This document shows positions 3,637 through 41,042 of a stretch of DNA of 49,893 nt, piece after piece (position 1 is the stretch's first letter; each line of letters starts with the position of its first letter). The translations under genes were made by a program, and so were the position numbers. Source of the stretch: a virus; the IMG/VR virus record IMGVR_UViG_3300036860_000543, positions 1-49,893 of that record. One strand, given 5' to 3'. The notes beneath the pieces are model-generated. The model searched no databases and was not told where the DNA came from. It saw nothing but the letters and a program-made list of their open reading frames with translations.

Positions 3637-4126
3637 GCCCTCGCCGCCCGCGGCCGCGCCCCGGGGCGACCGCCTCGAAGCCATCGCCATGCTTGTGGCG
3701 GCGCGGCGCGAGACCACCGAGATCGCCCGCGTGCTCGGCGTCCCCCTCAGCTTCATCTACGCCTGCAAGGAGTCGCCCGCCTTCGCTGCCCGCGTCGCCG
3801 AGCTGCGAGGCGCCGAGAACGCCGTGCGCCAGCGCCTCGACGACGACGCCCTCGTGAACGTGGACTTCATCCGTAGCGTCCGCAACGGCGAGCACGCCGG
3901 CGAGGACCCGAAGGCCATCGCCACCCGCATGGACGCCGCGAAGGCCCTCCTCGAGCGCCAAGTACGCAAGGACGTCGTTGAGCAGCAGGCCCCCGCCATC
4001 CACATCCACATCGACGCCTCGCGCCACGCCACGATGGAGCGGGTGATGGCCGAGGACGCGGGGCCCGTGATCGACATCGAGGCTGTGAGCGCGATTCCAG
4101 GTCTCGATGACATCGACTCTCGATGA
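3623..4126 (+). CDS. Putative small terminase subunit
   Basis: 167 residues from ATG 3623. After a Pro/Ala-rich leader, residues about 20-55 form a helix-turn-helix (TTEIARVLGVPLSFIYACK), as in small terminases that recognise phage DNA. The middle is helical and the C-terminus acidic, fitting a ring-forming subunit. Its TGA overlaps the ATG of the large terminase gene (ATGA), the usual small-large order. Function is inferred from the motif and position. Confidence 0.65.
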   Translation: MPPPEPSPPAAAPRGDRLEAIAMLVAARRETTEIARVLGVPLSFIYACKESPAFAARVAELRGAENAVRQRLDDDALVNVDFIRSVRNGEHAGEDPKAIATRMDAAKALLERQVRKDVVEQQAPAIHIHIDASRHATMERVMAEDAGPVIDIEAVSAIPGLDDIDSR

Positions 4127-5256
4127 AGGCGAGCGAGCTGGTCGTGACGCGCGGTGGCGTGCGCCAGGCCGGCGCCACGCAGCCCGACACCGCCTTCATC
4201 GAGGGCTTCAGGCGCCAATGCGAGCGCTCCCTCTACGCCTTCGCGACCGGGGTGCTCGGCTACGACTTCCTCGTGCCCCATCTGCACCGCCACGTGTGCG
4301 CGTGGCTCCAGCGCGTGCCGCCACGTCGCAAGATGCTGCTGATGCCCCGCGAGCACGGCAAGTCGACGCTCGTGCCACGCGCCCTGCCCCTCCACTCGTG
4401 GGTGCAGCCCCGCGAGGCCAACATCTACCTCCCCGGCGTCCTCGGCGTCGACACGCGCTGGTTGCTGGCGGGTGAGACCTTCGATCGCGCGAAAGGCAAC
4501 CTGCGGGTCTGCAAAGCGCACCTGGAGTCCAACGAGCTGCTCCGCGCGCTCTGGCCGCACGTCGTGTGGGAGCTGCCGCGCCGCGACGCCAAGGTCTGGA
4601 ACGACACCGAGTTCGTGCTGCCGCGCTCGCAGGAGTTCGCCGAGCCAAGCCTCCTCGCCGTCGGCGTCGGCGCCGCCATCACCGGCATCCACCCCGACGG
4701 CCAGATCAAGGACGACATCACCACCGAAGCGGCCGCCAACAGCGACGTCGTCATGCAGACCGCCATCGACTGGCACATCAACACGCGCGCCTTGAGCCCG
4801 CGCGGCCTTGAGATCATCACCGCCACCTACTGGGCCGCCCACGACCTCCCCCACGTCGTCGAACGCGACCCCACCGTCGCCGTCAACTCCCGCTTCCGCG
4901 CCATTCTCGACGACGAGGGCCACCAGATTTGGCCCGAGGGCGGCTTCGACATCGAGGACCTGAAGCGCACCTTCGGCCCACGCTTCTACCTCCTCTACAT
5001 GAACTCCGTGACCGACAGCGCGCTCGTCGACTTCCGCCCCCAGGACCTCCGCACCTTCACCCTCGAAGCCGACGGCCTCCTCCACTACACCGACGACCCC
5101 CGCGACGCGACGTGGCTCGCCGACCCCACCATCGCCCTCGCCCCGCGCCCCGAGCGCCCCCAGCCCGACTGGCACATCGACCCGCGCGAGCGCCTCGAAG
5201 TCGGCGCCCGCGCCGCCCGCCTCTTCACCGCTCGTCATGCCACTCTCCGCCCTTGA
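4123..5256 (+). CDS. terL: Large terminase, ATPase part (split gene)
   Basis: 377 residues. A Walker A-like sequence MPREHGKST lies at residues 74-82, in the place and form usual for phage packaging ATPases. An acidic Walker B-like segment (IKDDITTEA) follows around residue 190, and the coupling motif TATYW around 235. The protein stops shortly after the ATPase domain, in a Pro/Arg-rich tail. The nuclease domain is encoded separately by the overlapping gene at 5237, in another frame. Together they cover a normal-length large terminase. Transcription and start (ATGA overlap with the small subunit) are operon-like. Confidence 0.85.
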   Translation: MKASELVVTRGGVRQAGATQPDTAFIEGFRRQCERSLYAFATGVLGYDFLVPHLHRHVCAWLQRVPPRRKMLLMPREHGKSTLVPRALPLHSWVQPREANIYLPGVLGVDTRWLLAGETFDRAKGNLRVCKAHLESNELLRALWPHVVWELPRRDAKVWNDTEFVLPRSQEFAEPSLLAVGVGAAITGIHPDGQIKDDITTEAAANSDVVMQTAIDWHINTRALSPRGLEIITATYWAAHDLPHVVERDPTVAVNSRFRAILDDEGHQIWPEGGFDIEDLKRTFGPRFYLLYMNSVTDSALVDFRPQDLRTFTLEADGLLHYTDDPRDATWLADPTIALAPRPERPQPDWHIDPRERLEVGARAARLFTARHATLRP

Positions 5257-6177: not shown

Positions 6178-6522
6178 ATGCCCTACAGGGACACAGAGAC
6201 CCGTCGAGCTAAAAATCGCGAGAACGAGAAGCGGCGGTATCACCAAAAGCCCCATCTTTTCCGTGATGCCAACCTGAGGAACCTCTACGGCATCACTCTC
6301 GATGAGTGGAATTCTATGCTCGTGGCTCAGGAGAATCGCTGCGCGATGCCAGATTGCACCGCAGATGCTCCTGGTGGCTACGGCACGTGGCACACAGATC
6401 ACGACCACTCAACGGGCAGGGTACGAGGACTACTCTGTGCGAAGTGCAACACCCTGCTTGGCGCCTACGAGACGACGAAGTACCGTCATGCGGCGTTTGA
6501 GCACTACATCCAGAGGAGCTAG
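6178..6522 (+). CDS. Endonuclease VII-like His-Me nuclease
   Basis: 114 residues. The core matches the recombination endonuclease VII family: LYGITLDEWNSML, a CxxxxC pair, then HTDHDHSTGRVRGLLC and CNTLLG, which give the zinc-binding Cys pairs and the catalytic DH-H signature. Such enzymes cut branched DNA or act beside terminase in packaging. The DNA is visibly less GC-rich than its neighbours and it has its own promoter copy, which suggests later acquisition. Confidence 0.85.
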   Translation: MPYRDTETRRAKNRENEKRRYHQKPHLFRDANLRNLYGITLDEWNSMLVAQENRCAMPDCTADAPGGYGTWHTDHDHSTGRVRGLLCAKCNTLLGAYETTKYRHAAFEHYIQRS

Positions 6523-8534: not shown

Positions 8535-8711
8535 ATGCCCCACGTCAAGAAGCACGGCACCCACTACGGCCACGAGCAGCCCCGCCAAGACGACGACATC
8601 GGCCAGCACCATCGCCCCGGCCACCGCACCTCCGCGAAGGCCCTCAAGACCTTCGAGTCGGGCAAAGCGCGCGGCCGCGGCGCATCCTCGCGTGGCGGCG
8701 GCCATCGCTAG
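8535..8711 (+). CDS. Small basic protein 5
   Basis: 58 residues from ATG 8535. His/Lys/Arg/Gly-rich (KKHGTHYGHEQPRQ, KARGRGASSRGGGHR). Compositionally like the other small basic proteins and placed directly before the ATP-grasp gene. No recognised family. Confidence 0.6.
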   Translation: MPHVKKHGTHYGHEQPRQDDDIGQHHRPGHRTSAKALKTFESGKARGRGASSRGGGHR

Positions 8712-8717
8712 CGTCCG

Positions 8718-9968
8718 GTGAGCATCCATCTCGCGAGCGCCTCCGGTGACGGCTTCTGCCTCGCCTACCGCCTCACGCGTGACGGCCACCCCACCACTTG
8801 GTGGTGCCAGGCGCATGAGGGGCGCGCGATCGGGCGCGGCCTTGTCGAGGCCAGCGCCATCCCGCCACGCGGCGCCACCACCATCTACGACGCCGTCGGC
8901 ATGACGCCGGTGCGCGGCGCCGCCCACCTCGGCGCCAACGACCTCGAAACCTGGGAAACGCGCCGCATGCTCGGCACGCGCACCATGGCCGAGCACGGCA
9001 TCCGCACCCCGCCGACCCACGAGTTCCGCCGCATCGAGGACGCCCGCGCCTTTCTGCGCCGCCACGACGGCGAGTTCTACTTCAAGCCCGACGGCACCCA
9101 CGTTCCGAAGTCCATGACCAAGAAGGGCACCAGCGAGGCGCTGCTGCGCTTCCTCACGTGGGCTGCGCCGCAGCTCGCCAAGGTCCCGCGCTTCGAGCTG
9201 CAAGAGCCCGTCGAGAGTGGCTGCGAGGTGGACGTCGCGGTGTGGCTCAACGCGCGTGGCCCTATCGCCTACGAGGTGTGCCTCGAAGAGAAGAAGTTCT
9301 GCACCGGCGACCTTGGCCCCGCCACCGGCTGCCAATCCAACGTGCTCTGGGACGTTCCCGCGTGCGCGCTGGTCGCCGACACCATCGAGCCCTTCATCGA
9401 GACCCTTTACCGCAGCGGCTACGTCGGCCTCGCGAGCATCAACACCATCATCACCCCGAAGCTCGACATCTACGGCCTGGAGTTCACGATGCGGCTCGGC
9501 TTTGACTCGACGCAGGCCGCGCTGGCACTCTGGGATGACACGCTGGGCGACCAGCTCGACGCCTTCGCCCGCGGCCGCACCGACGCCTTTGAGCGCTCGC
9601 GGCGAGCGGCCATGACGCTCCGCATCTCGACACCGCCGCAGCCCATCGAGGACTCCCGCGACGACACGAAGCTCGCGGGGACGCCGCTGCCGCCCGAGTT
9701 GCTAGAGGCCGAGGGCTTCCTCCCCGATGACGTCGCCCTCGACCGCGAGAAGCTCCCGATCTGCGCCACCGGCAGCGGCTTCATCGGCACGCTCAGCACG
9801 ACGGGCACCTCCCTCGCGACGATGCGCGACACGTTGCTGAAGCGCGCGAAGGCCCTCGCCATCGACGACGCCATGTGGCGCAAAGACCCCGTCTCGCGCG
9901 CCGACAAGGCCCTCGCCTTCCTCCGCAAGCACGGGCTCTGCCCCGATCCGTTCGCCGTCGATGCCTGA
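8718..9968 (+). CDS. PurD-like ATP-grasp ligase
   Basis: 416 residues from GTG 8718. The order of motifs follows phosphoribosylamine-glycine ligase: an N-terminal Rossmann-like segment, ATP-grasp Lys in FYFKPDG (about 121-126), the Glu/Gly segment EPVESGCEVDVAVW (about 163-176), GDLGPATGC (about 197-205, compare GDxGPNTGGMG) and YGLEFTMRLGFDSTQ (about 252-266, compare EFNxRFGDPExQ). The C-terminal third differs from PurD. The ATP-grasp fold joins a carboxylate to an amine using ATP. No other purine gene is present, and it lies among virion genes and tiny basic proteins, so the substrate may not be phosphoribosylamine. Confidence 0.75.
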   Translation: MSIHLASASGDGFCLAYRLTRDGHPTTWWCQAHEGRAIGRGLVEASAIPPRGATTIYDAVGMTPVRGAAHLGANDLETWETRRMLGTRTMAEHGIRTPPTHEFRRIEDARAFLRRHDGEFYFKPDGTHVPKSMTKKGTSEALLRFLTWAAPQLAKVPRFELQEPVESGCEVDVAVWLNARGPIAYEVCLEEKKFCTGDLGPATGCQSNVLWDVPACALVADTIEPFIETLYRSGYVGLASINTIITPKLDIYGLEFTMRLGFDSTQAALALWDDTLGDQLDAFARGRTDAFERSRRAAMTLRISTPPQPIEDSRDDTKLAGTPLPPELLEAEGFLPDDVALDREKLPICATGSGFIGTLSTTGTSLATMRDTLLKRAKALAIDDAMWRKDPVSRADKALAFLRKHGLCPDPFAVDA

Positions 9969-10359
9969 GCGCTCCAACACCGACAACTACTCCTACAACG
10001 TGCAGTGGGCGAAGGACGGCCCCTACCAGACGCCCCTCACCACCGGCGAGGAGTACCAGTATCGCGAGTGGGTCCGCCACGTCAGCAGCATGGTCGGTCA
10101 CCGCCTCGAACCCGACGACATCTCCTACGACATGCGCGGGTATTGGAAGGAAGTCGTGCAGACCGGCGAGTGGCAGTCCGAGCACTTCACGAAGGGCGCC
10201 CACTTCCCCGACACCTACAAGACGCCCTACCACCCCACCTTCTCGCGTGAGTCGCGCTACGCCCTCCCCACCGCGCCCTTCTGGGACACCAAGGAGCGAC
10301 TCATCGACCCGATGACAAAGAAGCCCACCGAGGGCTTCATCGCCGAGACGTCCCGGTAG
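9961..10359 (+). CDS. Phage hypothetical protein, aromatic-rich
   Basis: 132 residues from ATG 9961, eight-base overlap with the ATP-grasp gene. Rich in Tyr, Trp and Pro, with motifs YDMRGYW, HFPDTYKTPYHPTFS and SRYA that look strongly constrained. I have seen similar small proteins in phage structural regions, without known function. Coupling to the ligase gene suggests a shared task. Confidence 0.65.
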   Translation: MPERSNTDNYSYNVQWAKDGPYQTPLTTGEEYQYREWVRHVSSMVGHRLEPDDISYDMRGYWKEVVQTGEWQSEHFTKGAHFPDTYKTPYHPTFSRESRYALPTAPFWDTKERLIDPMTKKPTEGFIAETSR

Positions 10360-10390: not shown

Positions 10391-10561
10391 ATGCTGACCA
10401 AGCTCTTGCCCTACGCGAAGGCGGCGGGCCTCGCGCTCCTCGCGGCCGTCGGCGTCGGCTACGCGACCTACACCACCAACCACGACCTCGCCGCGGCGCT
10501 CGTGGCCGGCTTCGGCGCCCTCGTCGCCAAGCTGCTCCCCTCGCACCTCCCGCCGTCGTGA
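10391..10561 (+). CDS. Small two-segment membrane protein
   Basis: 56 residues from ATG 10391. Two hydrophobic stretches (AAGLALLAAVGVGYATY and LAAALVAGFGALVAKLL) separated by a polar TTNHD turn, with short ends. The layout resembles a minimal holin hairpin, and it has its own promoter copy. The role as holin is only a suggestion, since no endolysin gene is adjacent. Confidence 0.65.
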   Translation: MLTKLLPYAKAAGLALLAAVGVGYATYTTNHDLAAALVAGFGALVAKLLPSHLPPS

Positions 10562-10920
10562 CGCCGCGTGTGCTCAACTTGGACCTCCAAGAAGGTCCCA
10601 CCGTGACACCCGGCGGTACCACGCGCCTCGAAGTCGTCCTCGCGCAGGGCGTCCCAGGACGCCTCTTCCACATCCAGCCGCGCGGCGCCGAAGGCGAGGA
10701 CCTCCCGTGGCCCGCGGGCCTCGTCCCCACCTGGGAGAACTCTGTGCCTGGCGTTGCCTCCTGCGTGGTTGCGCCCGATGGCCGTAGCGCCGTCCTCCAA
10801 CCCATCACTGGCGGCGCCACCCTCATCACTGTGCGCGCCGCGACCTGCATCTCCTACATCAGCGTCACCGTCAACCAGCCCGCCATCGACCACATCGACG
10901 TGCTGGAGCCGCCCGCATGA
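10558..10920 (+). CDS. Ig-like beta-sandwich protein
   Basis: 120 residues from GTG 10558 (GTGA overlap). Contains a Pro/Gly-rich beta pattern typical of bacterial Ig-like domains: PTVTPGGTTRLEV near the start and GGATLITVRA...YISVTVNQ near the end. Such domains decorate phage surfaces and bind weakly to host glycans. It overlaps the following secreted-protein gene (ATGA). Confidence 0.55.
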   Translation: MTPRVLNLDLQEGPTVTPGGTTRLEVVLAQGVPGRLFHIQPRGAEGEDLPWPAGLVPTWENSVPGVASCVVAPDGRSAVLQPITGGATLITVRAATCISYISVTVNQPAIDHIDVLEPPA

Positions 10921-11912
10921 TGCGCTTCCTCGCCCTCGCGGTGCTGCTCGTCGCGACCGCACGCGCCGAGGTCGTCCAGACGGTCCCGCCCGACCGCGTA
11001 TCTCTCGCCGTCAAGGGCGGCGCCGACTACACCACCTTTCAGAACCAGTACGAGCGTGACGCCGCCGAGCAGTCCCTTGCCAACGTCTACCTGCCGCAGG
11101 TCGAACTCTACATGAAGAGCGTGGTGGCCTGCGCAGGCTACCTCTCGAACGGCACCTCCCAGGCGAGCGTCATCTACCCCCGCCTCGACGCCGTCAACCA
11201 GTACCGAGGCGGCATGCTCCGCGGCAACACTTGGCAGGTGACGAACGGGGGGCGCCACTACCAGATCGAGAACTACCAGATGCAGCATGCGCAGGCGTGC
11301 TCCACCGGCAGCGGCAAGTACGACTGTGCCGAGAGCGCCCTCCTCACCGACACCATCAAGACGCTCCTCAACATCGCTGTCGTGAATGGCGCCTGCGTGA
11401 AGCTTCCTACGCGCTCCATCCCCCACTACGCCTCCTCGCTCGTCGGGCTCGCCAAGGGCAGCATCGTGTTCCTGGCGCTCGACGCCGCCAGCGAAGCCGC
11501 ACTGCACGCCGCCGAGGCCGCTCACGCGGCGGGCATGTGCGGCGCAGAGCCCTCGCCCATCGGCGTGCAAGCCGCGCAGGCGGCGTACATCGCCCTCGCC
11601 AGCACCCCCGAAGAGGCACACTTCCGCACCCCGCAGCCCTTCAAGGGCGGCTGCGACCCCTCCTGGTACACCGCCGAGTGCTGCGCCTGGAAGGCACTGG
11701 AGCATCGCGAGTACACCGCGTGGGCGCACGCGCAACGCCTGGGCCGCTGGGGCGAGGCCGACTGCTTCGGCGCGCGGCACGCCCATATGCACGTCTGCGC
11801 GAACTGGTACGGCGCCTACACGATCCGCATGCCGACGTGCCGCTTTGGCGACTACCCCGACGACACGCCCTCCACCACTTGCCAGGACTACCTGGCCAAC
11901 CCGGTACCCTAG
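10917..11912 (+). CDS. Secreted Cys-rich protein
   Basis: 331 residues. The first 18 residues (MMRFLALAVLLVATARA) form a signal peptide with an A-x-A cleavage site. The mature part holds about a dozen Cys, many paired in the last 100 residues (CDPSWYTAECCAW), which suggests disulfides. The middle is Ala-rich and helical. It sits in the virion operon, between an Ig-like protein and tail fibre genes, but a signal peptide implies export from the cytoplasm. No enzymatic motif recognised. Confidence 0.65.
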   Translation: MMRFLALAVLLVATARAEVVQTVPPDRVSLAVKGGADYTTFQNQYERDAAEQSLANVYLPQVELYMKSVVACAGYLSNGTSQASVIYPRLDAVNQYRGGMLRGNTWQVTNGGRHYQIENYQMQHAQACSTGSGKYDCAESALLTDTIKTLLNIAVVNGACVKLPTRSIPHYASSLVGLAKGSIVFLALDAASEAALHAAEAAHAAGMCGAEPSPIGVQAAQAAYIALASTPEEAHFRTPQPFKGGCDPSWYTAECCAWKALEHREYTAWAHAQRLGRWGEADCFGARHAHMHVCANWYGAYTIRMPTCRFGDYPDDTPSTTCQDYLANPVP

Positions 11913-11915
11913 CAG

Positions 11916-12314
11916 ATGGCCACACTCAACATTCTCGACATCAACGATCGCGGTTGGGTCGTACGCGGCTCCATTGGGGTCGTCTCCGCCGTCAGTACCT
12001 CCCTCACCTGGTTCGACCTCGGCAACCCGCTCGCGATCTTTCCCTTCATGACCCGCGGCGGCGGCGCCAACATCCTCGGCGTCAGCGTCGAGGGCACCTT
12101 CAGCTTGACGGCGCAGGTGCTCATCAGCCTCCAGGACTCGACGCCCTCCAGCGCGCCCGCAGGCGCCAGCGCCCTCGCGTGGCCGACGCTCGGCTCCACC
12201 ACCACCCCACAGATGTTCACCATCAACCAGCCCATCCGCTGGGTTGCCTTCAACTGCAGCGCCTTCACGTCGGGGAGTGCCACCGCATGGGTCTACGGCG
12301 TGCTGCCCAAGTAG
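11916..12314 (+). CDS. Small beta-rich virion-like protein
   Basis: 132 residues from ATG 11916. Beta-strand-rich, with FTINQPIRWVAF near the end; a similar phrase, YRIDQPITW, occurs in the protein at 21985-22620, so the two may be distant relatives. Probably a capsid or fibre accessory. It overlaps the start of the tailspike-like gene by 28 bases. Confidence 0.6.
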   Translation: MATLNILDINDRGWVVRGSIGVVSAVSTSLTWFDLGNPLAIFPFMTRGGGANILGVSVEGTFSLTAQVLISLQDSTPSSAPAGASALAWPTLGSTTTPQMFTINQPIRWVAFNCSAFTSGSATAWVYGVLPK

Positions 12315-14425
12315 CGGGGGGCATCCTCCTCGCGTCGCTCCTGCTTGCTGCCGTCCACACCGAAGACGGACAGTTCCACTTCTTCCCCGGCGGCGTCGGC
12401 GGCCCTGGCGCTGCGAGCGTTCTCCAGTTCAGCACCGGCAGCAACGGTGTGGACGATTCGGTCTCGATCCAAGCCGCTATCGACTCCCTCCCACGCGGCG
12501 GCACCCTTATCTTTCCTGCCGGAACCTACATTGGGTGCAACCTCATCCTTCGTAGCCCCTACCTCACCATCATCGGCGCCGGCAAGGATTCGACCGTCGT
12601 CCAAGCGACCGCTGCCTGCACAAACCTTTTCCTTCAGCAGATTAGCTCTCCCTTCGTCTCGACCGCTGGCCCCCTCTACACCGTCTCGTTCTCCGACCTC
12701 ACCCTCAAGGCCGGGGCCGCCACCCTATCCCTCGTCAATATCCTGGGCCGCGACGTCGCCCGCTTCCGTGCATCCAACATGGCGCTCAACGTCGGCAACG
12801 TTGGCGATGCGCAGGGCTTGAACCTCCAGGGCATCAACGACATCCGCATCGAGAACGTCGAGTGCTACTCGACCGTCCCCGGCCACGGCAAGTGCTTCGT
12901 ACTCACCAACTCCCCCACGCGCCCCATTCTTCGCAACAACACCTGCAAGTGGATTTACACCTGCTTCGAGTGGGGCACTGGTGGCACCGACTCCGCTCTC
13001 TTCGACTCGAACACCATCATGCAGGGTTGGCCCTTCCTCCCTACCAAGGTCAGTAACAGCGGCGGCACCGTCACGTATGTCGATGGCGTCCTGACCGACA
13101 CCTCCGCGACCTTCTCCGGACTCTGCAACGACGACGGCGCCGCCGCCCCGCAGACCTGCACCGGGAACCTTGGCAACCACGTCCGAGTCATGACCCCGAT
13201 CGTCACGCGCGCCGCGGGCAACGTGAACTTCAACAGCGGCGGCTCGGTCCTCACGGACGCAGGAGGCAACTTCGTCGCCAACGGCGTCAAGGAAGGGGAC
13301 ATTGTCCGCACCGCCTCTATCTGTCGCGACAACGGCGCCGTTGGTCCCATCCTGAAGCAGACCTGCACCGCACCTGTGGGCACGAACGGATGGGGCGACC
13401 GATGCGACTGCACCACCAACGCAGACTGCGCGTCGGGCGTCTGCGAGCCGCGTTTCACCTTCGTGATCGCGGTGCCCGACGCTACGCACCTCCGCACCTA
13501 CGAGTGGATGAGCGACACCGACCGCCGCGCCACGACTGCGCCGCTCCAGCCTGCCTACACCGTCTACTCCTGGGTGACGTGCTCGGTAGGGTCGTTCACG
13601 GCCACCGCGATCACCTGCGCGGCGACCACGGGCGCCCACTTCAAGAAGTGGGACCTCGGCACCGTCACCACACCCTCCAACGGTACCCTATACGAGGTCG
13701 AGACACGCCACCCGAACTACGCCTTTCTAGAGCAATCGGCGGCGACCAACTCGCAGATCACCAACAACTACGGCAATTGGAACTTCTCCGACAACGTCTT
13801 CACAACGGGCGACCACCCGACCGTGATCGGCAACCGTATGGAGAACTGTTGGGATCATTGCTTCAACCTACAAGGCAACCGCGGCGTCTTCAGTAGCAAT
13901 CGCGCCCGCCACTTCGGCGCTCGCGGCGTTGCCAACTTCTCCCCGAATTCCGTCATGGACGACACCATTGGCATGGATGGACCCATCACCGCCACTGGCT
14001 CCTCCAACTGCCCCATCGTCATCGGCTTCGTCGGGGCCAGCTCTGCCACGACCGCCAACAGCTTCGCCATCAACACGGTCACGCTCGCCACCTCCACCTC
14101 TGGCATCTGCGTCCAGAACAACTCCGACGGCGTGGTGCTCAACAATGCGCGCTGTCAGGGCACGTTCACAACGTCCTGCATCCGGAACGACGCCGCGACG
14201 AACGTCAACACCTTCATCCAGAACTACCATGGCGAAACGATCTCGAACAACGGCGGCACGTTCACGATCGAGGGCGGGAAGACCACGCAGGCTCTCGGGA
14301 CCGCGAACGCCGCACAGAACGGCTCCTACTTCGGCTGCTCGGACTGCACGGTCGCCAACCCCTGCGCGGCGGCAGGCACAGGCGCCGTGGCGAAGCGTCA
14401 GGGCGGCGCATGGGTCTGCAACTAG
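12287..14425 (+). CDS. Pectate-lyase-like beta-helix tailspike with signal peptide
   Basis: 712 residues from ATG 12287. A hydrophobic N-terminus (ILLASLLLAAVH, about 13-24) looks like a signal peptide. Residues about 40-300 have the start of a right-handed beta-helix: DDSVSIQAAIDSLPRGGTL-type opening, then GTYIG and repeated rungs, as in phage tailspikes that cleave polysaccharide. After the signal it has FFPGGVGGPG, and the C-terminus ends with a CxDC and GGAW motif, both shared with the next protein. A Cys-rich insert lies around residues 275-390. Catalytic residues cannot be assigned. Confidence 0.7.
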   Translation: MGLRRAAQVAGGILLASLLLAAVHTEDGQFHFFPGGVGGPGAASVLQFSTGSNGVDDSVSIQAAIDSLPRGGTLIFPAGTYIGCNLILRSPYLTIIGAGKDSTVVQATAACTNLFLQQISSPFVSTAGPLYTVSFSDLTLKAGAATLSLVNILGRDVARFRASNMALNVGNVGDAQGLNLQGINDIRIENVECYSTVPGHGKCFVLTNSPTRPILRNNTCKWIYTCFEWGTGGTDSALFDSNTIMQGWPFLPTKVSNSGGTVTYVDGVLTDTSATFSGLCNDDGAAAPQTCTGNLGNHVRVMTPIVTRAAGNVNFNSGGSVLTDAGGNFVANGVKEGDIVRTASICRDNGAVGPILKQTCTAPVGTNGWGDRCDCTTNADCASGVCEPRFTFVIAVPDATHLRTYEWMSDTDRRATTAPLQPAYTVYSWVTCSVGSFTATAITCAATTGAHFKKWDLGTVTTPSNGTLYEVETRHPNYAFLEQSAATNSQITNNYGNWNFSDNVFTTGDHPTVIGNRMENCWDHCFNLQGNRGVFSSNRARHFGARGVANFSPNSVMDDTIGMDGPITATGSSNCPIVIGFVGASSATTANSFAINTVTLATSTSGICVQNNSDGVVLNNARCQGTFTTSCIRNDAATNVNTFIQNYHGETISNNGGTFTIEGGKTTQALGTANAAQNGSYFGCSDCTVANPCAAAGTGAVAKRQGGAWVCN

Positions 14426-17400
14426 TCCTCGCGCTGCTGCTCTGCATCTCCTCGGCGTGGGCTGACACCAAGAACCCCTTCATCGAGGACAACCGCCAGC
14501 ACATCTTCCCTGGCGGCATCGGCCTCCCCGGCCCGCTGCAGGCCACCTGCGCCGACATCATTCCACCCGCCACGCCCACCACCGGCGAAGTCCTCTACTG
14601 CAAGGCGGGCTCAGGCTGGTGCGCCAAGGACTCCCTGGGCACCGAACGCTGCACCGGCGGCGGCGGAGGCGGCGGGAGCGGCACCATGACCGACCTGACG
14701 TGTGGCGCCGGCCTCACCTGCACCCCGAACCCTGTCATCACCTCAGGCACCGTCGCCATCGGCGCCGGCCAAGTCACCGATGCGATGCTCGCGAACAACT
14801 ACAGCGGCATTGGCACCTGCACCAACCAGTTCCCCCGCACGCTGAACGACAACGCTCCGCCGACCTGCGCGAGTGTCAGCCTCACCGCCGACGTGACCGG
14901 CACACTGCTCATCGGCAACGGCGGCACCGGCCAAACCACCGCCACCGCAGCCTTCAACGCCCTCGATCCCCTCACCACGCGTGGCGACCTCCTCACGCAC
15001 AACGGCACGAACTCGGTGCGTCTCCCAATCGGCGGCTCCGGTACCTTCCTCGCCACCGACGGAGTCGACGCTTTCTGGGCCGGCGTCAGCGCTGTCGGCA
15101 GCATCACCTGTGGCACCGCGCTCACCTGCGCCCCAGGAAACCCCATCACCTCCACCGGCACCATCTCCCTCTCCACCGTCGCCGACGACAACATTCTCGT
15201 CAGCACGGGCGCCACCTGGCAGGCGAAGGCTATCCCCCTCTCGACCGGCGTGGGCCAAGTCCTCCAGTACGACACCGCCAGCAACTCCTTCAGTGCCCAT
15301 ACGCTCGTCGACGCAGACATCCCCGACACCATCACCCTCTCCAACATCACCCAGATCGCTACGCGCTCCCACTCCTCGCTCCAGAACTTGAGCGCAGACG
15401 ACCACACCCAATACCTGCTGCTCGCGGGCCGTTCCCCCGTCCAGACCATGGCCGGCCAGTACCGCATCGGCAGCGGCACCAACGGCGGCCTCGACATCGA
15501 CGCCGACATCGCGAGTTCGAGTATTGGCCTCTTCATCGAGAAGAACGTCGGCACACCCATCGTCGGCCCGGCGCAAGCCTTCCTCTCCATCGTCACCAGC
15601 GCCGTCGCCGACTCTCCGAGCCTTCTCATGCAGGCGAGCAATGCACTCGCCGGCACCGACGCCGTCTTCGCGATGCGCCACTCGCGTGGCACCTACGCCG
15701 CTCCAACCGCCACCCAGAGCGCCGACATCCTCGGCACCTTCGCCATCCAAGGCTACGGTAACGGCACGTTCTCGGGCACCTCGCTCGCCGATGCCTCCCT
15801 CGAATTCTATGCGGCCGAGACCTTTGACGCCACGCACCGCGGCACCACCGCGAAGTTCTACACCACGAAATCTGCGCAAACGGCTCTCTCGGTCGTGTGG
15901 CAAACCAACACAAGCGCCTCTATGACGATCCCCGTCGGGCTCCGCATCGGCGACACGAGCCCTCCCACGCAGGCGCTGGAGAACGTCGGGCAGACGCGGA
16001 TATTCGCCTTGGATCGGACGTGGCCGGCAGTCGATACGCCGCCGCTCCTCATGAACAACGCCTACACCGCCACGGCAGCCACGACCGCCCCTCGCTTTGC
16101 GCTGTGGCAGGGCACCATCACCTATACAGGTGCGCCATCGCCAGCCGGCCATGCGCCGGTCATGGCGGAGTACGCGCCAGCCATCACCCTCAACTACACC
16201 GGCACATACGCGGGCGGTGTGGGATTTGCCACCGTGCCGACCGTGACCGTCTCGAATGGGCAGACTATTACCCTACCCGCCTTGGAATCGGATTTCTACG
16301 CCTCCACCACCTATCAAAAAGCGTCAGGCGGCACAGGCGCGCTCGATGCGGCCGCTACCCATTCGTCCTTTATCGCGACCGGGGCCGTCGGGGGAGTAGC
16401 CACTACCACTGGTGTGGCGATGAAACGGTGGAATGGTTATGTCTCGCTGGGACCGAACCTCCAGAACGGCGGCACGGTGGACGAGAATGTGCTCTTTCTC
16501 GCCAATGCGACCGCGGTGGGTACCTCACTGATCGCAGGCTTCCGGTCAGACATCGCCTCCGGTACGGGGCGCTGGGCCTTCCAGGGCAGCGGAACTGCGG
16601 TGTCGGGATTTGGTGGGGCGGTACGAATCGGCGACACGACCGCACCAACGACCACGAGCGGGCTTGAGGTTGTGGGCGTCGTCAAGCCCCGCATCGCCAA
16701 CGACACCAACCCCGGCATTGTCGACGCGATCGTCTGGGCGCCGACGCAGACGTACAGCGCTGGCGGGAGTGGGGTCCGAGTGCTCCGGGCCGCACCGACC
16801 GTCACAATCAGTGGAACGGGCGCGTCGGCCGACAGCGTCATCGACAGCAGCGGGACGTACAACATCGGCGCGGGAAGCAGCTCGATGACCGCGATCTATT
16901 CCCACCCGACCTACAACTACACGGCAGCGGTGGCGGCTCTCGGGTTGATCCCGACCACGTACCTCGACCAGTCGATCTACAATGCGTCGAACGTGGCGGC
17001 GGGAACGTCGAACGCCGCGGTCACGTTCACATCATTCGCGGCCGATCCGGAGTTCAAGGCAAGCGGCGCATCGGGAACCGTCACCTTCGACACGGTGCGG
17101 GAGATGAAGGCGGGCGGGCGTCTCACAACCGACAACGCCGCCGGCACGGTCACGGTCACGAATCTCATCCACTATGCGATCATTGCCGCGACGAACTCTG
17201 GGGCTGGCACTGAGACCGTGACCACGGAAGTGGGCCTGGACGTTCCGGACTTCGCCCTCGCGGGAACGAAAATCGGCATCCGCTCGGCGGGCAGTGCCGT
17301 GGAGCAGCGATGGGCGGGCAGTGCGGTCTTCGGGGCCAATGCGGCACCTACCAACGCCAGCACGGGGCTCGAAGTGTCGAGCACCACCAAGGCGTTCCTG

Positions 17401-17550
17401 ATGTCTCGGATGACCCAGGCACAAATGGCCGCGCTGACCGCCGCGAATGGCATGGTCGTCTACTGTACCGACTGCGTGAACACCTGCCTCGCGGGCGCCG
17501 GTGCCGGCTTCGCGTGCCTACGCGAGGGTGGCGCGTGGCGGCTTCTCTAG
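14410..17550 (+). CDS. Tail fibre with signal peptide
   Basis: 1046 residues from ATG 14410, overlapping the tailspike gene by 16 bases. It begins with a clear signal peptide (LVLALLLCISSAWA) followed by HIFPGGIGLPG. Fibre-type repeats follow: GNGGTGQTTATAAFNAL, SADDHTQYLLL, and three copies of a unit like RIGDTxxPTxxxLEVVG (about residues 513, 739 and 973). The end, CTDC...REGGAW, matches the tailspike terminus. The DNA from about 15.9 kb onward uses less biased codons, as if a fibre segment had been acquired. Likely host recognition. Confidence 0.75.
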   Translation: MGLQLVLALLLCISSAWADTKNPFIEDNRQHIFPGGIGLPGPLQATCADIIPPATPTTGEVLYCKAGSGWCAKDSLGTERCTGGGGGGGSGTMTDLTCGAGLTCTPNPVITSGTVAIGAGQVTDAMLANNYSGIGTCTNQFPRTLNDNAPPTCASVSLTADVTGTLLIGNGGTGQTTATAAFNALDPLTTRGDLLTHNGTNSVRLPIGGSGTFLATDGVDAFWAGVSAVGSITCGTALTCAPGNPITSTGTISLSTVADDNILVSTGATWQAKAIPLSTGVGQVLQYDTASNSFSAHTLVDADIPDTITLSNITQIATRSHSSLQNLSADDHTQYLLLAGRSPVQTMAGQYRIGSGTNGGLDIDADIASSSIGLFIEKNVGTPIVGPAQAFLSIVTSAVADSPSLLMQASNALAGTDAVFAMRHSRGTYAAPTATQSADILGTFAIQGYGNGTFSGTSLADASLEFYAAETFDATHRGTTAKFYTTKSAQTALSVVWQTNTSASMTIPVGLRIGDTSPPTQALENVGQTRIFALDRTWPAVDTPPLLMNNAYTATAATTAPRFALWQGTITYTGAPSPAGHAPVMAEYAPAITLNYTGTYAGGVGFATVPTVTVSNGQTITLPALESDFYASTTYQKASGGTGALDAAATHSSFIATGAVGGVATTTGVAMKRWNGYVSLGPNLQNGGTVDENVLFLANATAVGTSLIAGFRSDIASGTGRWAFQGSGTAVSGFGGAVRIGDTTAPTTTSGLEVVGVVKPRIANDTNPGIVDAIVWAPTQTYSAGGSGVRVLRAAPTVTISGTGASADSVIDSSGTYNIGAGSSSMTAIYSHPTYNYTAAVAALGLIPTTYLDQSIYNASNVAAGTSNAAVTFTSFAADPEFKASGASGTVTFDTVREMKAGGRLTTDNAAGTVTVTNLIHYAIIAATNSGAGTETVTTEVGLDVPDFALAGTKIGIRSAGSAVEQRWAGSAVFGANAAPTNASTGLEVSSTTKAFLMSRMTQAQMAALTAANGMVVYCTDCVNTCLAGAGAGFACLREGGAWRLL

Positions 17551-17938: not shown

Positions 17939-19801
17939 GTGGCACGCTACGTCGAACTGCACGGCCGCGACCGCAAGCCCTTCACACGCGACGCCGCCGC
18001 CGACACCCGCCTTGAGGCAGAACTCCAGTGGGAGCTGGAGATGATGTTCTCCGACCGCCACGCCCAGGAGGTCGCCTTCCGCGAGTCGCGTCGCCAGTAC
18101 GCCGCCGTGCCACGCGTCCCCTACCGCAACACGCCCGTCCCCGACGCCCCCAACGTCGAAGTCCCGCTCGGCGCCATCGCCTCCGACGCCCTCTACGCTC
18201 AGATCACCACCACCCTCTACAGCGGCTCTCCGCTCCTGACCGCTCGCGCCCTTGACGATCCTTGGATCGAGCACGCGAAGGAGGCGCAGCGCTGGACCAA
18301 CTACCTCGCCGCCAACGAGGTGCACCTGCGCGACGCCACCGACCACGCCTTCGCCGACTGCATCCAGCTCGGCACCGCCGGCTACTACATCCCCTACACC
18401 GAGGAAACCGTCAACGGCCGCGTGAGTCGCGTCACCACCAAGGGCCCCCGCATCATTCCCATCGCCCCCGAGAACCTCCTCTTCCTCGGCGGCTCCCGTG
18501 GCATGATCCACGACGACCGCTGGATGGGCATCCGCTGGTGGCTCTCGCCAGGCGAAATGCGCCTCCGCTCGCGCGTCCTCAAGTGGGACATGGCGAAGGC
18601 GATGCCCTGCGCCTCGACCGATTGGGTGCGCCGCCAGCACGAGCAGCTCGGCCTCACGAACTCCTCGACCTCCTGGAAAGAGCAGTTCGAGGTGATCGAG
18701 TTCTTCATCTACCACGACTACTACAACGACGGCGTCGACTTGGACCTCCACGTCTTCTACGACCGCTCCTCGCAGCGCATCCTCGACGTCTACCTGAACG
18801 AGTACGACGAGCGCCCGGTGGTGCCCATGCGCTACCAGGTGCGCCCGCACCTCGCCTACGGCCTCGGCGTCATGGACATGTTGCGGCCCTTCCAGGCCGA
18901 AGCCTCGGAGGTCCACAACCACCGCCTCTTGAACATGCTCATCGCCAACGTGCGCCACTGGATCGCGAAGCAGGGCAGCGTCCCCGACAACCTCGAAATC
19001 TGGGCCAACAAGGTCACCTTCGCCAACGACCCGAAGGACATCCAGGCGCTCCCCATGGGCGACGTCTACCCCTCCAGCATCCAAGCCGAGGAGATCGTCA
19101 CGGCCCTCGCCGAGCGTCGTGTCGGCACCGAGGGCGGCGTCGGTGCAGGTGCCAGCGCGCCCCACTCCATCGGCACCCGCACCCCCGGCATCACCACCAT
19201 GAGCGTGATGCAGGCGCAGAACTCGCGCTTTACCCCCGCCTTCGATCAGATGCGACTCGGCACCTGCGAGGCGCTCCGCCAGTGCCTTCTGCGGCAGCGC
19301 GAGCGCATTCTTGCGGGCGACAAGGACCTCCCCCAACACATGCGTGAGGTGCTCGGCGAAGGCGCCGACCTCGTCGAGGAGCTTCTCCGACACCCGAACT
19401 TCCACCGCTACGTCGCCGTCGAGTTCACCGCGCTCTCCCCGCAGACGAACGCCGCCGCCGACCAGCAAGCCATGACGATGCTGTGGCAGACGGCCGCCGC
19501 CAACTACTACAAGCCCATCATGGAGATGGTGGCCGCGGTGTCGCAGCCCGGCACCAACCCCGCGCTCCTCGACGTCGCCAAGCAGATCGCCGCCAAGAGC
19601 ACGGAGCTGTTCGACCGCTTCCTCCGCACCTTCGACCAAACCCGCGACCCGAAGCAGTTCCTCTTGGACCTCACGGAGAGCCTCGACAAGGTCGGCGAAG
19701 GCCAGCAGCAGCAGAACGACCTCCAGCAAGTGCTGCAAAGCATGTTCGGCGGCCAAGATGGTGGCGGTCAGGGCGGTCCGCAAGGCGCTCCGGTTGGTTG
19801 A
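17939..19801 (+). CDS. Portal protein
   Basis: 620 residues from GTG 17939. Size and features fit a podovirus-type portal: an N-terminal helical clip, a central region with GYYIPYTEETVNG and Trp-rich stem segments (WMGIRWWL), RPHLAYGLGVMDMLRPFQ, and a Gln/Gly-rich C-terminus that could form the barrel (QQQQNDLQQVLQSMFGG). Portals form the 12-subunit ring through which DNA is packaged by the terminase. Promoter copy 4 overlaps its last codons. Confidence 0.85.
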   Translation: MARYVELHGRDRKPFTRDAAADTRLEAELQWELEMMFSDRHAQEVAFRESRRQYAAVPRVPYRNTPVPDAPNVEVPLGAIASDALYAQITTTLYSGSPLLTARALDDPWIEHAKEAQRWTNYLAANEVHLRDATDHAFADCIQLGTAGYYIPYTEETVNGRVSRVTTKGPRIIPIAPENLLFLGGSRGMIHDDRWMGIRWWLSPGEMRLRSRVLKWDMAKAMPCASTDWVRRQHEQLGLTNSSTSWKEQFEVIEFFIYHDYYNDGVDLDLHVFYDRSSQRILDVYLNEYDERPVVPMRYQVRPHLAYGLGVMDMLRPFQAEASEVHNHRLLNMLIANVRHWIAKQGSVPDNLEIWANKVTFANDPKDIQALPMGDVYPSSIQAEEIVTALAERRVGTEGGVGAGASAPHSIGTRTPGITTMSVMQAQNSRFTPAFDQMRLGTCEALRQCLLRQRERILAGDKDLPQHMREVLGEGADLVEELLRHPNFHRYVAVEFTALSPQTNAAADQQAMTMLWQTAAANYYKPIMEMVAAVSQPGTNPALLDVAKQIAAKSTELFDRFLRTFDQTRDPKQFLLDLTESLDKVGEGQQQQNDLQQVLQSMFGGQDGGGQGGPQGAPVG

Positions 19802-22629: not shown

Positions 22630-23535
22630 ATGGCCTTCACCCGCACCGCAGGCGCCGTCTTCCTGAAGCCCGACCTCTACCGGGTCTACATCGAGACCGG
22701 CAAGGAACGCCCCCCGGAGTTCACGCAGATTTTCAACGTGGACGACATGCCGTGGAACCCGGTCACCGACCGCCAGGTGAGCGGCCTCGGCACGCTCCAG
22801 TCCATGCCCGAGGGCGAGGACTTCCCCGAGGACCAGCCTGTCGTCGGGAACGCGAAGGACTACGAGGCCCAGCCCTACGGCCTGATGGTCCAGATCACCT
22901 ACCCGATGTGGAAGGACGATCAGTACGGCGTGATGCGCGAGCTGGTCGCCGAAGAGGCCCGCTCCTCGCGCAACAAGCTCGAAGTCGACGCCTTCAGCGT
23001 CCTCAACTCCGCCTTCGACACCTCGGTGGTGGGCTTCACAGCCTCCGAGTCGCTGTGCAGCACCTCGCACGCCGGCTTCGCAGGCTCTGGTCCCTTCTCG
23101 AACCGCCCCTCGCCCGACGTCGGCTTCAGCGTCCTCGCCGTGCAGGGCTCGCTCATCCGCTTCGAGAACATGGTCAACGAGCGTGGCCTGCCGCGCCTGA
23201 TGGCCCCGACGATGGCGTGCATCGCCCCCGAGAACAAGTTCCTCGCCCGCGAAGTGCTCGGCTCCAGCGGCAAGCCCTTCACCGCCGACAACGAGCAGAA
23301 CTCACTCCTCGAAGACGACCTCCGCTGGATGGTGGTGCACTACTTCACCCTCGCCAAGCAGTGGTTCATCATGGCGTCGCAGGGCGTCCACGACCTGAAC
23401 TTCTTCTTCCGCGACCGTCCGATCTTCGACGTCTTCGACGACCCGTTCTCGAAGAACGTGCTCGCCACGGTCTACCAGCGCCACACCAAGGGCTTCGGTT
23501 CCTGGCGCGGCGTCGACGGCAGCAACGGAGGCTGA
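22630..23535 (+). CDS. Major capsid protein
   Basis: 301 residues from ATG 22630, with GGAG seven bases upstream. The mid-protein FxxSExLCSTSHAG, a helix EEARSSRNKLEVDAFSVLNSAF and the C-terminal half with FLAREVLG and LRWMVVHYF match the pattern of HK97-fold capsid proteins related to Mu gpT. The length is normal for that fold without a delta domain. Its best ribosome site in the region agrees with high expression. Confidence 0.75.
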   Translation: MAFTRTAGAVFLKPDLYRVYIETGKERPPEFTQIFNVDDMPWNPVTDRQVSGLGTLQSMPEGEDFPEDQPVVGNAKDYEAQPYGLMVQITYPMWKDDQYGVMRELVAEEARSSRNKLEVDAFSVLNSAFDTSVVGFTASESLCSTSHAGFAGSGPFSNRPSPDVGFSVLAVQGSLIRFENMVNERGLPRLMAPTMACIAPENKFLAREVLGSSGKPFTADNEQNSLLEDDLRWMVVHYFTLAKQWFIMASQGVHDLNFFFRDRPIFDVFDDPFSKNVLATVYQRHTKGFGSWRGVDGSNGG

Positions 23536-32526: not shown

Positions 32527-35229
32527 GTGCCCGACCTGACGCAGATCGCGACCGACCCCGACTTCCTCGCACTCGACGGCGCGGGCAAGCGTCAGGTCAT
32601 GGCGCACTTCGACCCCGAGGGCTTCGGGAAGCTCGACGCGAAGCACCAAGACGAGGTCCTTGGCCACTTCATGGGCGTCAGCATAGCCCATGGTGCCGAG
32701 TCGATCGGGCTCGACCCGCACCTCGCCGTCGCACAGGCCCACCATGAGAGCGGCTTCCGCGAGAGCGCCGTGAGCCCGAAGGGCGCCGAGGGTGTCATGC
32801 AGGTGATGCCCGAGACAGGCGCCGCAGTGCGCAAGCGCATGGCCGCCGGCACCCTTCCGACCGCGCAGGGCGTCTCCGAGCCCGTCGCCGTGGGCCTCGC
32901 CTATCAGCACGACATGAAGCAGCGCTTTGGCGATGATGCGCTCGCCCTCGCGGCCTACAACGCTGGACCGACCGCCGTCGAGCACGCGATGGCGAAGGCG
33001 CGAGCCGCGGGCCGCCCCGCGACCATCGACGGCATCCTGCCCTTCTTGCCCCACGAAACCCAAGCCTACGTCACAAATGTCCTCCACACCGCGCACTCGA
33101 TGCGGGCGGCGGGCGGCACGGGTAACCCCCCCGAAGCTCCCAGCGCGCCGTCCGCTGCCCCGCAACCCGCTGCGCAGCCGGGGGCTCCCGTCACACAGGG
33201 CGATCCTGCCAGCACCTCCACGCCCACCACCACGCAGGCACCTGACCGCAACCCCCTCTCGCTCCTCGCCGAGCACGTCGTCGAGCAGCCCGCCGCCGAG
33301 TGGAACGCGCTTGCCCACAAGTTCGGCATCCCCGGCGCCGTCGATCCCCACGAGGCCCGCCTCGCCGGCCTGCGCTACGGCTACCCCGGCGCCGAGGACT
33401 GGCCGCAGCGCGACCCCGAGGGGGCGCTTGAGACCGGCGTCGCGGCCCTCGCCCCCGCGGAGGGTCTCTGGCCCGTGGGCGCTGCGGCCTGGACCGCCGC
33501 CGCCACCCTCTCCAACAAGCACTTCGCCGATGCCGTCGAGGGGGTGCTTGGGCTTGGGCTGCTGGCGCGGGGCGGCCTCAAGGCCTACCGCTACCTGCGA
33601 GGCCGCTCCCCGGCCGAGGTCGCCCACCTCGCCGCGAAGGCCGAGGTGCCCGAGCGCGTGACCGACGTGGCGGTCGCCCGCTCCGCGCTCCGCTCCACCG
33701 TCGAGCGCGTCGAGACGGCCCTCCAGTACCACGCCGAGGAACTCTCGAAGGTCGAGGCCGCCGAGCGTGCCCTTCCCTCCACCATGAAGGAGGTGCAGAC
33801 CGCCCTCGGTGCAAGCGGCGCCTCCCCCGAGCTGGCGGGCCGCATGCTCCAGGCGACCGGCGGCACGGCCCGCGAGCTGGGCGGCGAGGTCGGCGTCGCG
33901 CGTGGCATGAACGTGCACCTCCGCAAGGTGGGAGAGCTGTACGAAGGCGCCCGCAAGCTCGGCGACTCGACCGGCGCGGTGCTCCCCCCGAAGAGTGCCG
34001 ACCACGTGGAGCTGCTCGACGCCGTCGATGACTACCTGAAGCACGGCGGCGCCGCCACCGACCCCATCGTCAAGCGCATCCGCGACCTTGGGCTCGTCGG
34101 CATCCAGACCGAGACCGGCGAGGTGATGTCGCTGCGGAGCGTGGGCGACGCCGACGCCTATCTCGCGATGCACCCGAAGGCCCAGAAAGCCTACGGCCCC
34201 ATCAGCTACCGCATGATCGGCGAGACCTACGCCGAGCTGGCGAACGTCTCGCCCACGCCGCGCGCCTACGCCACCTCGACCGATCGCTCCGCCCGCGCCT
34301 TCTACCGCCTGGTGCGGGGCTCTCTCAAGACGGCGATGGAGAAGATTGAGGCTGGCGACCCTGAGCTGCGCAACGCCGCCGCGAAGGCCGATGCCTACTA
34401 CCGCGACTTCGTGGTACCGTACCGCCGTACCGCCAAGGCCACCCTCGGCGCCTCAGTCGAGCCGACGCAAGCTTTCGACCGCCTCATAGACCGGCCCGAG
34501 CACCTCGTCCGCCACCTTGCGCTCGCGAGCGCGCCCGAGCGCCAAGCCCTCGCTGACGCGTGGCTCGACCGCCTCGTCCGCACGCACTCCAACGCGCTTG
34601 GCGAGATCGACTTCGGCGGCGTCCTGAAGGACTGGAACGGCGCCGACGACACCGTGCGCTCGCTCGTCGCGGCAAGCGGCGGCGCGGACCAAGTTGGTGG
34701 CCCCGCTCGCGTCCTCAACGAATGGGCGGCGAAGGCGCAGCGCATCGAGACCTCGAAGGATGCGTTGGCGAGCTTCAAGAAGAGCCTGACGGCCAACAAG
34801 TCGCGCGTGCTGCGTCAAGCACGCGACGACGTCACCACGGCTATCACGGCGCTCCGTGACACGCAGCGTCGCGTCAAGCACACGGGTCGCCTGCCGGTAG
34901 GTCCGCTCCGCAGCCCGGAGGACGCGGCGGTACTCGACTTCGGCACTGGCATGCGCATGTTCGGGCGCATGCACCTCGTCCTCGGCATCAAGGACATCCT
35001 CACCGGCAACTTCGCGATGGCCGCGCTCCAGGGGGCCGAGGCCGCCTTCATGATGCGGCGGCCACGCATGGTGGCGAAGGCCGTCATGACACCGGTACGG
35101 GGCGAGGATGGTCCGCTGCTCTCGGCGGCGCTCCATGGGCTCCTCCAGACGCTTGGGCCGGCGCATGCGGTGGCTAAGAAGGCGCAGCAGCAGCTTCAAT
35201 CGTCGTCCGAGCCGTCGTCGCCCCAGTGA
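32527..35229 (+). CDS. Large internal virion protein with lytic transglycosylase domain
   Basis: 900 residues from GTG 32527. Residues about 50-190 form a soluble lytic transglycosylase domain: HHESGFRES with the catalytic Glu near residue 74, GAEGVMQVMPETG, and ALAAYNAGPTAVEHA. It cuts peptidoglycan during DNA entry, as T7 gp16 does. The remaining 700 residues are helical and Ala/Glu-rich and resemble ejection proteins that form a tube across the envelope. Last gene of the plus-strand unit; its end overlaps the opposite gene at 35196. Confidence 0.8.
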   Translation: MPDLTQIATDPDFLALDGAGKRQVMAHFDPEGFGKLDAKHQDEVLGHFMGVSIAHGAESIGLDPHLAVAQAHHESGFRESAVSPKGAEGVMQVMPETGAAVRKRMAAGTLPTAQGVSEPVAVGLAYQHDMKQRFGDDALALAAYNAGPTAVEHAMAKARAAGRPATIDGILPFLPHETQAYVTNVLHTAHSMRAAGGTGNPPEAPSAPSAAPQPAAQPGAPVTQGDPASTSTPTTTQAPDRNPLSLLAEHVVEQPAAEWNALAHKFGIPGAVDPHEARLAGLRYGYPGAEDWPQRDPEGALETGVAALAPAEGLWPVGAAAWTAAATLSNKHFADAVEGVLGLGLLARGGLKAYRYLRGRSPAEVAHLAAKAEVPERVTDVAVARSALRSTVERVETALQYHAEELSKVEAAERALPSTMKEVQTALGASGASPELAGRMLQATGGTARELGGEVGVARGMNVHLRKVGELYEGARKLGDSTGAVLPPKSADHVELLDAVDDYLKHGGAATDPIVKRIRDLGLVGIQTETGEVMSLRSVGDADAYLAMHPKAQKAYGPISYRMIGETYAELANVSPTPRAYATSTDRSARAFYRLVRGSLKTAMEKIEAGDPELRNAAAKADAYYRDFVVPYRRTAKATLGASVEPTQAFDRLIDRPEHLVRHLALASAPERQALADAWLDRLVRTHSNALGEIDFGGVLKDWNGADDTVRSLVAASGGADQVGGPARVLNEWAAKAQRIETSKDALASFKKSLTANKSRVLRQARDDVTTAITALRDTQRRVKHTGRLPVGPLRSPEDAAVLDFGTGMRMFGRMHLVLGIKDILTGNFAMAALQGAEAAFMMRRPRMVAKAVMTPVRGEDGPLLSAALHGLLQTLGPAHAVAKKAQQQLQSSSEPSSPQ

Positions 35230-39885: not shown

Positions 39886-41042
39886 CGGTAGACCTTCCCC
39901 TGCGTGCGCGAGGTGACGACGTCTATTTCGCCCGCCGCGATGAGCGTCGCGACAATGCGGTCCATCTCGTCGGCGTGGATGCCCATCGACCCGAAGCGCA
40001 TGATGAGCGTCGCGCGCTTCACCGCCCCGCGCTGCCGCAAGAACGTCCGCACGCGAAGCGCTTGCCACCCCGCGGGCGTCTGGTGGACCCGCATCGCGAG
40101 CGCCCGCGCCCCCTTCTGGATGCCCTCCACCACCTCCTGCGCCTTCGCCATGTGGTGGCCCTCGATCGTGAGGCGCATGGTCTCGGCCGCCGCAAGGATC
40201 ATCGCGAGCTTCAAGCTCAGCACATGCTGCCGGTCCCACATCGCCGCCTCGACGTCGTTCTGGGGTGCGCTGCGCCCATACACCCACCCCTGCTCGATCG
40301 CCACCGCGGCGTCCGTGATGGTGAAGGCGCCGCTCAGCCCGCACAGCCGCTCGACCCGCCGCCGTAACCACCCCACCGCGGCCTCGTAGTCGTCGGGGTA
40401 GATGGGCTCCGTGAAGCGCCGCTCGTAGTTGCGCGTCTCCACGACGAACACACTACGACCCGAGAAGCCTGAGTCGAACAGGTCGGGGGTGATGGCCTTC
40501 GTGAACCACTCAGGGGTGGAGCCCGCGAGCCAATTGATGACGGGGCCACGCTCCACCCGCTTCACCCCATGCATGCGGGTCGCGTTCAGCACGATTTCGT
40601 GCCCGGCTTGGTAGAGTCGGACGAGATCGCTGACGAGCGCCTTGGTGAGGTCGCCGCCGGGGAGGTCCGCGAACAGCTCGCTTTGGATGAGCCACATCGG
40701 CGCCCCCGTGCCCGCTTCGGGGGCTTTTTGCGCGGCGACGAGGAGGTCCGAGAGGATGGCTTGAGTAAGGCGACCGGGAAGCGGATTGACGAACGGCCGT
40801 GCGGCGTCACTGAGGAGACTTCGAGCAAACCCGACTGCGTGATCCTTACCGATGCCAGACGGTCCGACGAGAAACACGAACAGGTTAGGGTACAAATGAA
40901 CGTGCCGGAAGCGGTCCAGGTACACTCGATCCCCAAGAGCCGCAGACACCAAGGACATGGCGGCCCAGGAATGGTAACGGGCGGGGGTGTGGTAGATGCC
41001 GGCGGCGTGGCGATAGCGGTCAAAGAAGTCCACACGCCTCAA
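39867..41042 (-). CDS. Primase/helicase-type ATPase (DUF3987-like)
   Basis: 391 residues. TTG 41042 forms TTGA with the polymerase stop; GTG 41033 is the alternative start. Walker A GPSGIGKD at residues 60-67. Typical of the phage AAA-like ATPase group that also includes YfjI-like replication proteins: GSTPEWFTKAITPDLFDSGFSGRSVFVVE follows, with a winged-helix-like end. It likely unwinds or loads at the replication fork with the adjacent polymerase. Confidence 0.7.
   Translation of the reverse strand: MRRVDFFDRYRHAAGIYHTPARYHSWAAMSLVSAALGDRVYLDRFRHVHLYPNLFVFLVGPSGIGKDHAVGFARSLLSDAARPFVNPLPGRLTQAILSDLLVAAQKAPEAGTGAPMWLIQSELFADLPGGDLTKALVSDLVRLYQAGHEIVLNATRMHGVKRVERGPVINWLAGSTPEWFTKAITPDLFDSGFSGRSVFVVETRNYERRFTEPIYPDDYEAAVGWLRRRVERLCGLSGAFTITDAAVAIEQGWVYGRSAPQNDVEAAMWDRQHVLSLKLAMILAAAETMRLTIEGHHMAKAQEVVEGIQKGARALAMRVHQTPAGWQALRVRTFLRQRGAVKRATLIMRFGSMGIHADEMDRIVATLIAAGEIDVVTSRTQGKVYRWIGMT

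Follow-up and report, generated by a model that had tools for sequence, protein, structure and literature searches.

When a viral gene carries the motifs of a purine biosynthesis enzyme but lies among late structural genes, the question arises whether its product makes purines at all. The window analysed here is the whole 49,893-nucleotide stretch of IMG/VR virus record IMGVR_UViG_3300036860_000543. In its first-pass annotation, the product of one such gene was likened to phosphoribosylamine-glycine ligase (PurD, or GAR synthetase), with the proposal that it may attach an amino acid or a peptide to a protein or nucleotide of the phage. Phosphoribosylamine-glycine ligase has been reported to be more than 2.8-fold enriched in ocean viruses (PMC11360552), given as an auxiliary purine gene of viruses (PMC11097641), and listed again as a virus-enriched purine gene (PMC12043954). 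Literature searches found no description of the viral PurD-like family analysed here.

Relationship of the ligase to PurD

The open reading frame of the ligase (Table 1) is the top-scoring coding choice at its site, with a GC3 of 0.92. The similarity of its product to a protein of phage MW202796 exceeds chance (tblastn, E = 2e-12), and 24 positions are invariant across 30 aligned relatives. It is a real gene, and its product is related to PurD over the full length, with all three domains. The length of 416 residues was confirmed, as was the described order of PurD motifs: the ATP-grasp lysine, a GDxGPxTG-type motif (GDLGPATG, residues 197-204) and an ExxxRxGxDxTQ-type motif (EFTMRLGFDSTQ, residues 255-266). 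Judged from sequence by curated standards, the protein is only a distant relative and not PurD: it scores 31.9 bits (E = 6e-8) against the NCBIfam purD model TIGR00877, far under the cut-off of 288 and thus below the equivalog threshold, and 13.6 bits against Pfam GARS_A, for which the cut-off is 27. Its viral relatives do match TIGR00877, yet they sit in a separate clade.

Table 1. Coordinates of the ligase gene, its motifs and other features of the window.
Feature	Position	Strand	Remark
Terminase large subunit (TerL)	4123..5256	+	
Small basic protein	8535..8711	+	6-base gap upstream of ligase
PurD-like ATP-grasp ligase, virus-enriched PurD2-type family, 416 aa	8718..9968	+	GTG start
Codon of K123, ATP-grasp lysine (FYFKPDG)	9084..9086	+	invariant in family; position computed from residue number
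Motif E190-x-K-K-x3-G-D-L-G-P-A-T-G204	9285..9329	+	PurD equivalent DHKR..GDxGPNTGGMG
Motif E255-F-T257-M-R259-L-G261	9480..9500	+	stands for PurD E-[FY]-N-x-R-F-G-D-P-E
132 aa gene	9961..10359	+	overlaps ligase gene by 8 bases; matches Tunturiibacter phage Tunturi_3 gp25
56 aa hydrophobic protein, holin-like by appearance only	10391..10561	+	inferred from sequence
Head-tail adaptor / portal-like connector	17939..19801	+	
Likely major capsid protein	22630..23535	+	29% identity to that of MW202796
Internal virion protein with lytic domain	32527..35229	+	

Structure prediction against PurD, which had been named as a check, returned the ATP-grasp/PurD fold. A profile of 30 family members matched PurD chains of the PDB end to end (best 2yw2, E = 3e-39), and the matches with E < 0.01 were PurDs and one PurP only. 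The AlphaFold2 model, built on a 38-member alignment, reached a pLDDT of 76 and a pTM of 0.79, and was weak at residues 51-62, 195-203 and 307-353; when the predicted fold was searched with Foldseek, 15 of the 15 best PDB matches were GAR synthetases. Profile, model and fold search agree that the N, ATP-grasp and C domains follow in PurD order, and the alignment and the fold search place in the ligase an ATP-grasp fold with the catalytic Lys and the metal-binding Glu. In BFVD, the whole fold was matched by no viral protein (best TM 0.43).

The viral family has in common with PurD (TIGR00877; PDB 2yw2, 1gso, 2xcl) the three-domain full-length fold, the ATP-grasp Lys (K123) and the metal Glu (E255), the latter two invariant across the family, together with the C-terminal YRxD. 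The last persists as WRKD in the window ligase, with R388 and D390 invariant, so that the C-terminus, previously described as divergent, is not wholly so. Five changes set the family apart from PurD: the N-terminal GGREHA is missing; LExSK has become LExxR followed by G; KADGLA(A/G)GKG has become KPxG(D/E); DHKR..GDxGPNTGGMG has become ExKK..GDLGxATG(E/C); and E-[FY]-N-x-R-F-G-D-P-E has become E-[FW]-T-x-R-x-G. In UniProt/HAMAP annotation, Glu and Asn of the PurD E-x-N are the metal ligands, and the Asn of this pair is Thr (T257) in the window ligase. Upstream of E-[FW]-T, D-x-N occurs in nearly all members and S-x-N in the window protein.

These differences are consistent throughout the family. 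GGREH, NTGGMG and R[F]GDPE were each found in none of 32 viral-family clusters, and E-x-T-x-R was found in all 32; canonical cellular PurD controls had the opposite pattern, with the hallmark motifs in six of six. Most members were recruited through the KK-GDLG motif, so its conservation in the family partly reflects how they were chosen; the counts for E-x-T-x-R and for motif loss are independent of that recruitment. As a further control, canonical purD genes borne by viral contigs (17 loci, some of them near-duplicates) carried E-x-N-x-R-x-GDPE in every case, and therefore viral location alone does not erase the signature. On such sequence criteria the window ligase is not a PurD orthologue.

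Distribution and phylogeny of the PurD2-type family

No relative in viral contigs, genome contigs or plasmids was reached by pattern searches that started from the window protein by itself. In 50,697 phage records, tblastn gave a single family member, MW202796 (Caudoviricetes sp., uncultured, Manatee Spring), which aligns to 78% of the window protein at 25.7% identity. The MW202796 ligase (record positions 42140-43468) is unannotated in GenBank. Other INPHARED matches, from Salmonella, Acinetobacter and unannotated records, had 21-28% identity and scores of only 48-80 bits; those with an annotation bore the label purD and were taken as bacterial purD in the records. With MW202796 as a bridge, 49 viral loci were reached. 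At least 119 viral contigs of IMG/VR carry the recruiting pattern ExKKxxxG[DE]LGx[AT]TG, against nine contigs from the genomes of bacteria and archaea, 257 Gb in all; thus the family is frequent among uncultivated viruses, rare in cellular genomes and strongly virus-enriched. MW202796 and the IMG/VR contigs bear out the suggestion in the first-pass annotation that similar genes occur in environmental phages. The at least 119 IMG/VR contigs with a hallmark-less PurD-like gene compare with 17 that have the canonical motif, a ratio that is rough since the search patterns differ. Among 160 loci (some being second copies of one contig), 159 open reading frames match the family profile, forming 35 clusters at 80% identity, and PHROGs had a matching family for none of 30 members.

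Phylogenetic analysis was carried out with IQ-TREE on 50 rows comprising canonical PurD, the viral family and a cellular paralogue. The viral family and the cellular paralogue split together from canonical PurD with 100/100 support and long stems. Here we use PurD2-type family for proteins that carry E-x-T-x-R-x-G and fall in the clade apart from PurD, both of which are true of the window ligase. It clusters with the ligases of four loci (L147, L159, L062 and L162; 99/94), with which it has the TGCxxN loop in common, whereas the MW202796 ligase belongs to the main viral clade, of TGEQGT type. The exact place of the window ligase in the tree is unsure on account of its long branch (2.19); its best identity is 29%.

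The cellular paralogue, termed PurD2, was found in some Patescibacteria (9 of 145 genomes sampled) and Bacteroidota (2 of 99, the phylum of Ekhidna lutea), and accompanies canonical PurD in five genomes. The cellular proteins (Ekhidna lutea, L169:5398-6708; Patescibacteria, L164 and L168) are similar to the viral ones in motifs, side of the tree and length, but differ in being chromosomal, solitary and rare. Their neighbourhoods showed no conserved partner, except for an adjoining Mrp-like gene in two Bacteroidota. The viral-family motif set was observed at the paralogue loci L164, L165, L166, L168, L169 and L204-L211, with a tandem duplicate in L207.

Gene neighbourhood in the window and in relatives

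The placement among late structural genes was upheld: the ligase lies between TerL (from 4123) and the head-tail adaptor (from 17939), with tail and pectate-lyase-like genes downstream. The statement that the genome has no other purine gene also stood, in that a PurM-type AIRS domain was absent from the window record, as from 24 related virus records, and no purine family was found among the scanned window genes; the record has no end repeat, so its completeness is unproven. The 132 aa product has its relative in the C-terminal portion of gp25 (1070 aa) of Tunturi_3, a protein that adjoins lytic tail and endolysin genes in that phage; what is a part of a large protein there (PP885686 29500-29826) is a stand-alone gene in the window. 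This relation, and the occurrence of L162 in an Acidobacteriota MAG, hint at an acidobacterial host for the window phage.

Several other features of the window were observed. The large tail/fibre-like proteins at 10917-11912, 12287-14425 and 14410-17550 have signal-peptide-like starts, which is odd for virion proteins, and such starts also occur in tail/fibre-like proteins of L159 (3504-5684), L062 (5759-7750) and L162. One large tail/fibre-like protein downstream of the ligase has a pectate-lyase-like domain. A single open reading frame at 41042-43468 (minus strand) combines a uracil-DNA glycosylase-like domain, a 3'-5' exonuclease and DNA polymerase A, and an Endonuclease VII-type nuclease at 6178-6522 has homologues in L009, L010 and L012.

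In MW202796 and many relatives, the ligase comes after a long gene where the virion block ends, with an acetyltransferase and a head-closure protein upstream, and tail fibre, endolysin, hydrophobic holin-like and Rz-like proteins downstream. As in the window, the MW202796 ligase ends a block of virion genes, and the capsid proteins of the two are homologous. In most relatives the ligase comes straight after the lytic internal virion gene, which is not so in the window; L147 has the gene order terminase, ligase, portal, capsid. Of the 30 representatives whose contigs were long enough, 25 have a gene on the ligase strand that ends no more than 70 bp before the ligase gene, and in 15 of those 25 it overlaps by four bases or one base; its product is usually long. 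The long upstream proteins had no PHROG match, and we infer from their size and place that they are internal virion proteins. By eye, the upstream partner proteins showed no common C-terminal acceptor motif. The slot after the head-closure gene is occupied by a GNAT acetyltransferase (L020:4915-5364, L002, L118) or by another family (L041:5165-6028, L073) of cupin-like sequence, the L041 member of which partly matches short tail fibre proteins.

Proposed function and its implications

The protein is, more probably than not, an ATP-grasp carboxylate-amine ligase that descends from the PurD fold, has ceased to make glycinamide ribonucleotide and acts late on a non-purine substrate. By the chemistry of its fold, it would use ATP to activate a carboxylate as an acyl-phosphate and pass it to an amine. 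The loss of PurD motifs implies that the acceptor, and perhaps the donor too, has changed; with GGREH, the presumed site motif, gone, the amine would be one other than phosphoribosylamine. From the position of the gene, late action is deduced, probably while the phage assembles or leaves the cell and possibly on a substrate of the virion or envelope that is produced together with the particle or lysis proteins; this position could partly be chance hitch-hiking. ATP-grasp proteins of other phages and the GS-like amidoligases of LUZ24-like and OM43 phages are likewise of carboxylate-amine ligase type, but they are different families or partial ATP-grasp folds.

It is improbable that the protein is a divergent yet genuine GAR synthetase, that is, an auxiliary metabolic gene product boosting purine supply. 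Its full-length homology and fold, the presence of canonical purD in some viruses and the classing of such genes as purine auxiliary metabolic genes in surveys (PMC11360552, PMC11097641) all speak for that function; against it, the hallmark motifs are lost without exception, although virus-borne canonical PurDs keep E-x-N-x-R-x-GDPE, the clade is separate, PurM is not beside the ligase, and the gene is late-positioned, away from nucleotide genes. Together with the score below the TIGR00877 cut-off, these observations favour the earlier suspicion that it is probably not a purine enzyme, and the purine-enzyme label is probably wrong for such phage genes.

Two narrower forms of the preferred function, late ligation to a non-purine substrate, differ in the target. 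Addition of an amino acid to a virion or ejection protein as a post-translational modification, for which the overlap, seen in roughly every second representative, with the gene of a long protein upstream, the fixed late place and the frequent acetyltransferase in the module argue, is somewhat unlikely in that specific form, as the upstream proteins have no common acceptor motif and cellular paralogues occur with no phage genes around them. Modification of the host envelope, or production of a small amide metabolite for phage exclusion or lysis, would fit the endolysin, holin-like and fibre genes near the ligase in relatives, and envelope modification has been proposed for other phage amidoligases (PMC10580990); the Pfam family of those amidoligases is a different one (PF12224), and this target we regard as doubtful. 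Participation in the hypermodification of DNA bases is very improbable. Modified bases bearing amino acids do occur in some phages, but the ligase gene lies in the late module apart from replication genes, and no base-modification gene was noticed adjoining it in the window or in relatives.

A wider proposal, which we put forward tentatively and rate somewhat short of an even chance, is that members of an undescribed, mainly viral ATP-grasp ligase family add a covalent modification to a component of the virion, ejection apparatus or envelope late in infection, that the rare sister of the family in Patescibacteria and Bacteroidota is chromosomal, and that viral surveys have counted the family under purine metabolism. 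If the purD calls of those surveys are members of this family, the purine-boosting interpretation would be wrong for those calls, and phages would have a covalent modification step, so far unstudied, that is linked to virion or lysis genes.
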